Assembly (NCBI GenBank): GCA_017455525.1
Contig: JAFTAP010000104.1
Span: 1 to 37,354 of the forward strand
Direction: 5' to 3'
Origin: Lachnospiraceae bacterium
GTDB taxonomy: Bacteria > Bacillota > Clostridia > Lachnospirales > Lachnospiraceae
DNA: 37,354 nt
The position numbers and the translations under genes were made by a program. This document shows, piece by piece, positions 17,086-37,354 of this stretch. Below the pieces are notes generated by a model. The model made no database searches and had not been told where the DNA came from. It saw only the letters and a list, made by a program, of their open reading frames with translations. Positions within the stretch are counted from its first letter, which is position 1. Each line of letters begins with the position of its first letter.

Positions 17086-17390
17086 TGCCGTGACTGGCGA
17101 GGCGGTTTTATTACGTCTTGCGGCGATAGCTGGGAAGCGGAAGTTGCTGGCATGTGAGCCTAAGGCTTGGACCCAAGCATGGCAGGTAATTTCGTGGAGC
17201 GAATGTCAAGTCATAGAATTTTGGCGACGAAGTCACTGTACAGTTAGTGGAGGGAGCAAGGCCCGATAAGGGAACCGGCTTCGGACATAGTAAGGCTGCG
17301 GTCTGCATTTATTTAATATATAAAGGACACGCGCGGCAATGTGTACAGTCACCGACTAGAAATCATTAAATTAAGGAGGCGACTTTTTTT
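17086..17390 (+). promoter_or_regulatory. Long structured 5' leader of the S10 operon
   Basis: About 300 nt lie between the promoter and rpsJ without a credible gene. Hairpins visible by eye are CTTGCC with GGCGAG (17084-17101), GCTTG with CAAGC (17165-17178), TTCG with CGAA (near 17191-17203) and CCG-GCTT-CGG (near 17275-17283). A long-range match pairs ACTGTACA (near 17235) with TGTACAGT (near 17342). Leaders at this position bind L4 in E. coli, and others have been described in Firmicutes. Which protein is sensed here is not known. The last bases are AAGGAGGCGAC before the ATG. Confidence 0.65.
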
Positions 17391-32701: not shown

Positions 32702-34549
32702 ATGGCTATCGTAGAGACACATGATCTGAGCTTTGATTATATACGCCGTGATGATGAGGGGAATGTCGCTTCCATCAACAGGGCTTTGAATGATGTGGAG
32801 CTTTCCGTGGAGAAGGGGGAGTTTATCGCCATCCTTGGCGGGAACGGGTCGGGGAAGTCCACTCTTGCGAAGCATATTAACGCTATCCTCTATCCAACGG
32901 AGGGGTATGTACTTGTTGATGGCAAGGATACCTCAGATGAGGCTAATACTCTCGATATCCGCCAGAAGGCGGGCATGATATTCCAGAATCCCGATAATCA
33001 GATAATAGGCTCCGTAGTCGAGGAAGACGTAGGCTTCGGACCGGAGAATATGGGCATCCCTACGGAGGATATCTGGGCGAGAGTAGAGGAGTCCTTGAAG
33101 ATTCTTGGCATGTGGGAGTACCGGAAGCACTCGCCTATGAGGCTATCCGGCGGACAGAAGCAGAGGGTCGCCATAGCGGGGGTAGTAGCAATGCACCCCG
33201 AATGCATCATAATGGACGAGCCTACGGCTATGCTCGATCCTGCGGGACGGAAGGATGTGATAAGGGCGGCGAGGGCTCTTAATGACGTCGAGAAGGTTAC
33301 GATAATCCTTATCACGCATTATATGGAGGAGGTCGTCTATGCAAACAGGGTTTTCGTCATGCAGGACGGCGAGATAAAGCTGACAGGTACTCCGAGGGAG
33401 ATATTTTCAAGGGTAGAGGAGCTGGAAGGTCTGCGTCTTAACGTACCGCAGGCTACGAGGCTTGCTTATGAGCTTAAGAAGAGAGGACTTACGCAGCTTC
33501 CCGACGGAATATTAACGGAAAAGGAACTTGTAACTGAACTATGTCGTTGCTTTCCAGCGGCCAGAGCCCTGCCCGCTGAAAGCAACGCTCACCGCCATGC
33601 AGAATTGACTGCGTCAATGGGCGGTGAGCTGAATGACCAAGGATATAGCTCCGAAGCCACGCAGCAAGTGCGTGGCTCGGGAATTGGCGATAATGTCAAG
33701 TCTATAATTCTCGACCATATAAACTACATATACAGCAAGGGCACGAGCGATGAGATAAAGGCGCTTGACGACGTGTCCTTTGAGATACGAACGGGGGATT
33801 TCATCGGGCTTATCGGTCATACCGGCTCAGGGAAGTCAACGCTCGTGCAGCATCTTGACGGACTGCTTAAGGCTACGTCAGGTCATATTTATTACAACGG
33901 AGAGGACATATACGATAAGGACTATGACATGAGGGCTTTAAGGGGTAAGGTCGGGCTTGTGTTCCAATACCCGGAGCATCAGTTATTTGAAGAGGATGTA
34001 TTCAAGGATGTCTGCTTCGGACCTAAGAATATGGGAATGTCCGACAAGGACACGGAGCTTGCGGCATATAGCGCATTAAAGGCCGTGAAGCTTCCGGATG
34101 ACCTTTTCTACGTGTCGCCCTTTGAGCTTTCAGGCGGGCAGAAAAGACGGGTGGCTATAGCGGGAGTGCTGGCTATGAAGCCAGAGGTGCTTGTGCTTGA
34201 CGAGCCTACGGCGGGACTTGACCCTGAGGGCAGGGACGAGATACTTGATCTGGTGAAGGAGCTGCATGACGATCAGGGCATCACTGTCGTGCTCGTCTCT
34301 CATTCCATGGAGGATGTGGCAAACTATGCGAGCCATATCATAGTCTTGGAAAAGGGCAGGGTATATATGGACGGAACCCCGAAGGAGATATTCTCGCATA
34401 TAGAGGAGCTTGAGAATATAGGACTTGCGGCGCCCAGAGTCACTTATATAATGAATGAGCTTTACAAGAGGGGCTTTGAGGTGGATGTCACGGCGACTAC
34501 TATACCGGAGGCGGTTAATTCCGTCATAGGGGCGGTGTGGAATGCTTAG
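32702..34549 (+). CDS. Fused ECF transporter ATPase, EcfA1-EcfA2 in one chain
   Basis: This protein drives uptake of vitamins or other micronutrients by ECF transporters, with exchangeable S-subunits. The 615-residue chain has two complete ABC domains. The first has Walker [10 protein letters not shown] (46-54) and LSGGQKQR (148-155); the second has GHTGSGKST (372-380) and a second LSGGQKRR. In most Bacillota these are two adjacent genes of about 280 residues each. Here residues up to about 282 ([13 protein letters not shown]) match the end of an EcfA1, and residues from about 331 ([18 protein letters not shown]) match the start of an EcfA2. The 45-50 residues in between (282-327) are encoded by a block of inverted repeats. 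It overlaps ecfT by 8 bp. Assignment of the halves is by order and general similarity. Confidence 0.92.
33545..33680. repeat. Three consecutive inverted repeats read in frame inside the fused ATPase gene
   Basis: Repeat 1 pairs 33545-33560 with 33573-33587 (CGTTGCTTTCCAGCGG and CCGCTGAAAGCAACG, one bulged base). Repeat 2 pairs 33587-33596 with 33620-33629 (GCTCACCGCC and GGCGGTGAGC), and has an inner ATTGAC/GTCAAT pair at 33604-33618. Repeat 3 pairs 33651-33663 with 33669-33680 (CCGAAGCCACGCA and TGCGTGGCTCGG, one bulge) around a GCAAG loop. Repeats 1 and 2 abut at 33587. The whole block is open in the ATPase frame. It resembles palindromic mobile elements of the kind inserted in genes of Rickettsia. 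Confidence 0.88.
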
Positions 34550-35348
34550 GGAGATGACGCTCGGACAATATTATCAGGCGGAATCAAGGCTTCACAGGCT
34601 CGATCCCAGGGTGAAGCTTGTGGGAACGCTTGTATTCATCATTTCCTTATTCATCTCACAGAAGATAGCGTGCTATGCGGTCGCGACGGTATTCCTTGTC
34701 TGCATGATAAGGCTGTCAAAAGTGCCTTTCTCCTATATGGTGAGAGGAATGAAGGCTATCGTCTTCATCATGCTGATCACGGTCATATTCAATCTTTTCC
34801 TTACGCCGGGAGAGACGCTGATTCATTTCTGGGTATTCACGATTACGAAGGAAGGCTTGAAGAATGCGGTTTACACGGTGATAAGGCTTGCGTATCTGAT
34901 ACTCGGGTCCACGCTTATGACGCTGACTACCACGCCGAACGATCTGACCGACGGTCTGGAAAGAGGCTTGGGCTTCATGCGAGTATTCAAGCTTCCCGTG
35001 CATGAGATAGCTATGATGATGTCGATAGCATTGAGATTCATCCCCATACTTCTCGAAGAGACGGATAAGATAATGAAAGCGCAGCAGGCAAGGGGGGCGG
35101 ACTTTGAGAGCGGAGGACTGATAAAAAGGGCGAGGGCTATGGTCCCTCTTCTCGTGCCGCTCTTTGTATCGGCTTTCAGACGGGCTAATGACCTTGCTCT
35201 TGCTATGGAGGCCAGATGCTATCATGGCGGAGAGGGCAGGACTAAGATGAAGCCGCTTTCATATAAAGCGTGGGATAAGCGGGCGTATGTGATACTTGCA
35301 TGCTATCTTGCCTTGATTATTTTGCTGGGCATAGTGTCGCCTATATGA
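34542..35348 (+). CDS. ecfT: ECF transporter transmembrane protein EcfT
   Basis: EcfT couples the ATPases to the substrate-binding S-subunit. The 268-residue membrane protein begins [20 protein letters not shown] and then has about five to six hydrophobic segments. It carries the coupling-helix motif QQARGADF followed by the second conserved region [15 protein letters not shown]. Its start overlaps the end of the ATPase gene by 8 bp. No S-subunit gene is visible nearby, consistent with a shared (group II) energising module. Confidence 0.95.
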
Positions 35349-37192: not shown

Positions 37193-37228
37193 CTGACGGC
37201 TGAAAAATTCGGCAATAAAATGATGCTA

Positions 37229-37346
37229 GGGTCAAAAGGTACAAATCCGATTGTGCTTGCACAAATAGGATTTGGAACTTGTGACCCGCCCGAACATGAG
37301 GAAGTAGCAATTTGCGTAGCAAATTAGCGGATTCCGAATGGACGGA
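37229..37346. repeat. Hairpin-rich intergenic tail
   Basis: Behind the membrane-protein gene, 37229-37287 form a long interrupted hairpin: GGGTCA with TGACCC, AAATCC with GGATTT, TTGTGC with GCACAA. It is followed at 37307-37328 by AATTTGC with GCAAATT around GTA, then by TCCG with CGGA (37333-37346). The first may act as a terminator although no T-run follows. Three hairpins in a row resemble the organisation of the block inside the ATPase gene. The window ends here; no gene is seen after 37192. Confidence 0.65.
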
Positions 37347-37354
37347 GCATGGCG

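Follow-up and report, generated by a model that had tools for sequence, protein, structure and literature searches.

The locus described here raises the question of how two ATPase genes that are separate in relatives became one, and what part a palindromic block at their junction played in the joining. In the window (the whole stretch of DNA that was analyzed, 37,354 nucleotides from a Lachnospiraceae bacterium), the program's ORF translation gives a single open frame from 32702 to 34549 that encodes 615 amino acids, EcfA1 followed by EcfA2. The NCBIfam models ECF_ATPase_1 (TIGR04520) and ECF_ATPase_2 (TIGR04521) locate the two domains at residues 5 to 281 and 335 to 608, respectively, with 634 bits (curated cut-off, 315) and 656 bits (cut-off, 330), both being whole-protein scores of the fused protein to which two stretches each contribute. 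EcfA1 and EcfA2 work as a pair in ECF transporters, in which relatives of EcfA2 have been solved; this makes their fusion plausible and fits with its repeated origin. A T subunit gene adjoins the fused gene, in a position conserved in relatives; its product matched TIGR02454 (E value, 9.4e-27) at 94.1 bits, below the family cut-off of 111.8, and it is therefore named a T component rather than CbiQ. Elsewhere in the window, an S10-Clostridia ribosomal protein leader (Rfam RF03136; 54.6 bits) was identified at 17124 to 17230, and a Clostridiales-1 RNA (RF01699; 84.7 bits), truncated at the window end, at 37221 to 37354. Features of the fused locus are listed in the table.

Table. Positions of the fused gene's domains, the element and its borders in the window
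Feature	Position	Strand	Basis
EcfA1 ATPase domain, codons 1-281	32702..33544	+	TIGR04520; alignment to free-standing EcfA1 of relatives
ATGTC, target left of the element; the ATG at 33541-33543 corresponds to the start codon of the relatives' separate ecfA2	33541..33545	+	Empty-site alignment; translation
MITE-like three-hairpin element, 152 nt, encoding most of the interdomain linker	33546..33697	+	blastn to a genus copy; covariance model
Hairpin 1, holding the left end GTTGCTTTCCAGCGG (family version GTTACAATTCAGCGC)	33546..33586	+	Fold of -24.0 kcal/mol, z -5.5; copy alignment
Hairpin 2	33587..33629	+	Fold of -26.2 kcal/mol, z -5.2
Hairpin 3	33650..33682	+	Inverted repeat; 33648-33682 folds at -22.7 kcal/mol, z -4.5
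AAGTC, probable remnant of the target duplication, 4/5 match to ATGTC	33698..33702	+	Empty-site alignment
EcfA2 ATPase domain from Ser334, plus stop codon	33701..34549	+	TIGR04521
T-component gene (ecfT-like), which begins before the fused gene ends	34542..35348	+	TIGR02454 (CbiQ T component); same place in relatives

The initial annotation had proposed that an in-frame palindromic block joins ecfA1 and ecfA2, and the single 615-codon frame, the presence of both domains and three strong hairpins between them bear this out. Its description of the block as three tandem inverted repeats totaling 136 bp was right as to the three hairpins and needed revision as to extent and regularity, as the element is longer (see the table) and its arms are imperfect. 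Each hairpin was more stable than all 200 of its own shuffles, and the region from 33530 to 33700 had a z score of -7.4 when folded as RNA and -7.9 when the other strand was folded as DNA. Among 59 distinct linkers of fused EcfA1-EcfA2 genes that were folded, the extremes were the window and one other species carrying the same insertion (genome G021; z, -7.1), and the next value was -3.1. In energy per base, another fused linker came close (-0.47, versus -0.48 here and -0.51 in G021), with a z score that was not extreme. An Rfam search at gathering scores returned no known RNA family at the block. The open frame and the element both recur in G021, whose two domains are 84.6% and 80.9% identical in nucleotide sequence to those of the window's own genome (G000), which makes a sequencing error unlikely as the source of the frame.

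The block has relatives. Aligned by blastn to another copy in the genus, it was 78% identical over 107 nt (E value, 1.1e-17), and searches of its own genome found partial copies elsewhere. Across 48 genomes of the genus, blastn identified copies with 73 to 78% identity over about 96 to 110 nt together with shorter pieces, 13 of the 48 having matches at an E value of ≤0.01. Fifteen full or near-full copies, including the two from the ecf loci, could be aligned end to end. In this alignment 14 of 41 base pairs showed changes on both sides, a count that none of 500 shuffles reached; the covariation score was likewise matched by 0/500 shuffles and slid structures scored far lower, while one of the five covariation measures (further pair types) was reached by 31/500 shuffles, all with a structure that came from the very alignment tested. 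A covariance model that included the ecf copies placed 11 matches in the window's own genome at an E value of ≤1, of which one lies partly over a different element on the other strand and two are weak, and found matches in 40/48 genus genomes (own genome included) at ≤0.01; single genomes held up to 63 element matches. A second model, R2, built from 13 copies with both ecf copies left out, still matched 33546 to 33694 of the window at 107.3 bits and the G021 ecf locus at 94.5 bits. It gave no match at the junctions of 43 other loci (32 fused and 11 separate), two of which carry a copy outside the ecf genes. The other host-genome copies of the repeats for which the initial annotation had suggested a search thus exist, and the block belongs to a mobile element that is dispersed through the host genome and the genus.

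Beyond the genus, 14 of 150 family genomes in a wider sample matched at an E value of ≤1e-5, two of the 14 being from this genus. Weaker matches (G032, G066 and others) keep the layout with differing stem sequences, for which reason the family, with varied stems around one three-hairpin layout, looks like a superfamily. Other such subfamilies were seen in G032 (loci L225 to L233), G066 (L234 to L238) and G182, where several copies show visible 8-bp duplications, and the G032 genome (3 contigs) holds 50 element matches. The copy at locus L004 in the window's own genome also has the three-hairpin layout, with a further palindrome inserted within it. A different repeat with the core GTCTTCGCTTCGCTACGGTCGGTGCTAAGCAAACAGCCACTGGCTGTTTAGCACC (own genome, L043 to L059) lies <200 bases from a contig end in 12/17 loci and is therefore a probable cause of assembly breaks; a related repeat can be seen, by eye, inside the three-hairpin element of L004, L169 and L183.

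The element is short (about 147 to 152 nt), dispersed, present in many copies and without a transposase gene. Family ends read GTTACAATTCAGCG ... CGCTGAACAGTAAC and are mutually inverted with mismatches, the right terminal repeat of the ecf copy being degenerate. When boundary shifts of up to two bases were allowed, 8-bp flanking duplications matching at 7 or 8 of 8 positions were found in 10/14 copies (shuffles: mean, 0.78; maximum, 7). With fixed boundaries, a larger set that overlaps the first gave 38/65, of which 31 were exact (shuffles: mean, 0.76; maximum, 4), and the signal in these 65 copies was confined to a length of 8. With terminal inverted repeats and, in other copies, 8-bp target duplications, the element is by these sequence features MITE-like. 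The ecf copy itself retains no intact 8-bp duplication, the boundary 8-mers matching at 1/8 positions in G000 and 0/8 in G021. The AAGTC that precedes the resumed ecfA2 sequence lies precisely at the position predicted for a duplication. By eye and with exact ends, no opposed end pair flanking a transposase-sized stretch, as a parent transposon would have, was seen in G000, G021, G023, G061 or G031.

Alignment with close relatives that have separate ecfA1 and ecfA2, a check proposed at the outset, gave an empty site. Ten relatives (G018, G035, G024, G023, G002, G005, G022, G007, G012 and G020) have an uninterrupted ATGTC/GATTATACTCGACC-type junction and separate overlapping genes, the ecfA2 start sitting within the end of ecfA1 in a different frame. 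In the window, the relatives' sequence is broken after ATGTC by the 152-nt element plus five bases. The net insertion of 157 nt equals 1 modulo 3 and thereby brings the reading frame of ecfA2 into line with that of ecfA1. The original start codon of ecfA2 is retained, and its frame stops after 12 codons; unless an internal start serves, EcfA2 can therefore be made only by ribosomes that have read through the element. Empty sites in relatives, together with the dispersed mobile family, agree with the initial annotation's simplest reading that a palindromic element inserted near the stop codon and was kept as a linker.

Fusion of these genes is not confined to the two carriers of the element. 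Of 36 same-genus relatives, 17 were fused, 11 were separate at the junction (the ten with empty sites plus G003, which has a gap), five gave no junction reading and three had no good match. Fused relatives without palindromes at the junction had been named in advance as evidence against the element's role, and they do occur, the element model matching at none of the junctions of 16 of the 17 fused relatives (all except G021); but a common clade of these with G000 and G021 was rejected. A tree was built from five neighboring genes of 33 taxa picked from 110 loci. In it, G000 and G021 group with the separate-gene genomes G020 and G024 (support, 96), and the fused G017 and G033 adjoin the separate-gene G002 and G022 (94). 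Forced grouping of G000, G021, G017 and G033 was rejected (delta logL, 142), as was that of 13 fused taxa (delta logL, 496), and the element-free fusions are accordingly taken as separate events. Several nodes among the nearest relatives were weak (bootstrap, 28, 29 and 36). A tree of rpoA-rplQ, made without G021 and G017, placed G000 beside AC3007, a separate-gene genome. Repeated splitting of an old fusion is formally allowed by the tree and is unlikely because of the exact match to the empty site. From these sequences we conclude that fusion of ecfA1 and ecfA2 is recurrent in the genus and that, among the fusions compared, only that of the window and G021 was made by the element.

Resemblance between the linkers of G017 and G033 and the element (RCYPAA versus RCFPAA) was considered as a trace of a decayed copy and rejected: the model had no match in L010, L079 or L120, a second model was also blank in L010 and L026, and the tree sets those fusions apart. 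Across Clostridia, EcfA1-EcfA2 fusions (loci L008 to L157) have linkers of about 80 to 240 nt with very different sequences. These fusions look like repeated origins, a single origin having been tested within the genus; the loci were collected with a fused query and are for that reason skewed to fused genes. Another unusual route to a linker was seen in L106 (RUG13462), where it consists of near-exact 17-residue tandem repeats (SPSGDISAKESDWDHGD).

Differences between G000 and G021 are distributed unevenly over the fused gene. Nucleotide differences amount to 15.4% and 19.1% in the two domains and to 9/150 sites in the linker; at fourfold sites the counts are 67/123 and 65/124 in the domains and 1/26 in the linker (Fisher, 3e-7). 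With the pairing common to both genomes, differences fall at 0/90 stem sites, 10/62 sites of loops and spacer, and 292/1693 flanking sites. Stems thus depart from the flanks (p = 9e-8) and from loops and spacer (Fisher, 8e-5), whereas loops and flanks are alike (16.1% versus 17.2%; p = 1.0). Restricted to fourfold sites, the contrast is 0/19 in stems versus 132/247 in flanks, and for loops 1/7 versus 132/247 (p = 0.06). As the common structure was fixed after the differences were known, the test was also made with the unedited G000 fold, which gave 1/88 versus 9/64 (p = 0.002). Among 12 control pairs of other fused genes, several of which have members in common and whose linkers offer small fourfold counts, divergence of the linker exceeded that of the flanks in 11 (in one marginally, 6.7% versus 6.1%); the exception, L019-L020, had a slightly less diverged linker (4% versus 5%). 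Orthologous intergenic copies were sought as a further control, and the best candidate pair, L004/L246, has unrelated flanks. No other element copy at a shared site was seen when nine further G000 loci were compared with 6/11 further G021 copies, the only match outside elements being a 163-nt tract situated about 1.3 to 1.8 kb away from the L195 and L246 elements. The hairpin structure seems to have been selected since insertion, as judged from one comparison, because two genomes alone carry the insertion. Because the stems did not change as loops and flanks diverged, the hairpins probably have a use, whether as RNA or as DNA.

Apart from the ecf locus, no copy that could be judged lay inside a gene. 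Gene context was assessed for 92 rows representing 90 distinct places, six of which end <60 nt from a contig end and could not qualify. Open frames extending at least 60 nt to either side spanned three of the 90 copies, two of them the ecf copies. The third, L249, was rejected, as the element ends 18 nt before the murF ATG, where the family match begins, and hence lies upstream of murF. Copies inside other genes, which the initial annotation had asked after in particular, were thus not found among the 90 places, and a search of the 48 genomes with the linker peptide recovered no long frame except that of 617 amino acids at the ecf loci of G000 and G021, with other matches in frames of 38 to 161 amino acids. 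Two of six frames are open in the ecf copies and none or one in the others among the 15 aligned copies; a productive fusion therefore needs the right orientation, frame and place.

The explanation that we favor, at a probability of roughly 0.85, is that insertion of the element in a shared ancestor fused the overlapping genes and that its hairpins were kept; it draws on element homology, the empty sites, the frame, the shared insertion and the uneven divergence, all read from sequence. A nonautonomous element of roughly 150 bp with three hairpins would have inserted, presumably in a single event, in the common ancestor of the window species and G021, landing in the short overlap between ecfA1 and ecfA2. 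A shortened target duplication would account for the net 157 nt, which would have removed the ecfA1 stop and brought ecfA2 into its frame; as the element is open in that frame, one polypeptide would result, consisting of EcfA1, a linker of about 50 residues and EcfA2. If expressed, this would be one 68-kDa protein, an obligate 1:1 EcfA1/EcfA2 pair as in the lineages that fused the same genes otherwise, and the order of these steps is itself the most plausible one rather than observed. The hairpins may have a role in translation or message stability; our best guess, weakly founded, is a ribosome slowed by them at the border between the domains, which would give EcfA1 time to fold before the synthesis of EcfA2. 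That the same 152 bases came to be read as both protein and structure, the element fusing the ATPases and its hairpins then being selected to pace translation or protect the message, is advanced tentatively, at somewhat less than even odds.

The most serious competitor is that the hairpins are passive, an open-frame element having been tolerated as a linker and its low divergence reflecting a young insertion spread by local recombination. A linker less diverged than both domains is what would be expected of an insertion younger than the flank divergence, the lack of other shared-site copies in the loci compared agrees with this, and loops at 16%, well below fourfold flanks at 53%, suggest that the insertion may be younger than its flanks. 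But youth or transfer of the insertion would reduce divergence throughout it, and constancy confined to the stems, with loops changing as fast as all flanking sites taken together, speaks against this reading; any transferred tract would also have to end at the borders of the element. We regard passive hairpins as unlikely. Less likely still is that the hairpins are signals for RNA processing or internal initiation and that two separate ATPases continue to be made. NEMIS stem-loops have been proposed as RNase III substrates (PMC2229807), and in-frame start codons exist within the element at 33605 (TTG), 33617 (ATG) and 33668 (GTG), but by eye none has a Shine-Dalgarno-like run at a normal distance upstream, and cleavage inside the element would leave no intact message for the whole protein.

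Element-free fusion is common in same-genus relatives, G017 and G033 among them, so the gene might have fused before the element entered an existing linker. Both sides of the element nevertheless match the overlapping separate-gene junction with five extra bases and no older linker left, and G000 and G021 group with separate-gene relatives, which makes this order highly improbable. An assembly or sequencing artifact is scarcely credible: both carriers are draft genomes (G000 has 110 contigs), but the element, with the same borders and the same open frame, is present in two assemblies from species that have diverged.

Gene fusions are mostly met in their finished state. In this rumen bacterium the fusion agent (a mobile element), the empty sites and sister lineages fused by other routes are all visible, so that each step from overlapping genes to a single fused protein is open to test. 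If stem conservation holds in more genomes, this would be a transposable element kept for structure and protein at once.

Among known systems, other EcfA1-EcfA2 fusions of Lachnospiraceae and other Clostridia share the gene order and the single polypeptide with a linker, but 57/59 linkers have z scores above -3.2, compared with about -7 here, and a single origin is rejected within the genus. Rickettsia palindromic elements (RPE) are another close system. They are described as hairpin-forming repeats of about 150 bp that are translated in frame within genes (PMC10969869, PMC2229807), similar to the ecf element in length and in being read in frame; the host differs, and the likeness is one of described features. 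Nearly half of RPEs are reported inside ORFs (PMC10969869), whereas recurrent in-frame insertion into unrelated genes was not seen for this family, only 2/90 copies lying within a gene and both at one locus. As described there, an RPE interrupts one gene while the ecf element joins two neighbors, and the RPE target duplication is entered as "?" in a table of PMC2229807, in contrast to the clear 8-bp duplication of this family. The ERIC, RUP and Correia-NEMIS MITEs are likewise short and mainly intergenic; they have inverted repeats at their ends, duplicate their target and form RNA hairpins, and some contain open frames fused to genes; this family is distinguished by its 8-bp duplication and three-hairpin layout. 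ERIC, RU-2 and NEMIS elements are known fused to ORFs, and such MITEs are described as fused to or inside an ORF, unlike the ecf element, which bridges adjacent genes (PMC10969869, PMC2229807, PMC2759123). No MITE bridging two adjacent genes was found in the parts of the MITE literature searched. Measured against those sources, coding MITEs such as RPE and ERIC are already known, and a MITE that bridges two operon genes and retains its hairpins is new.
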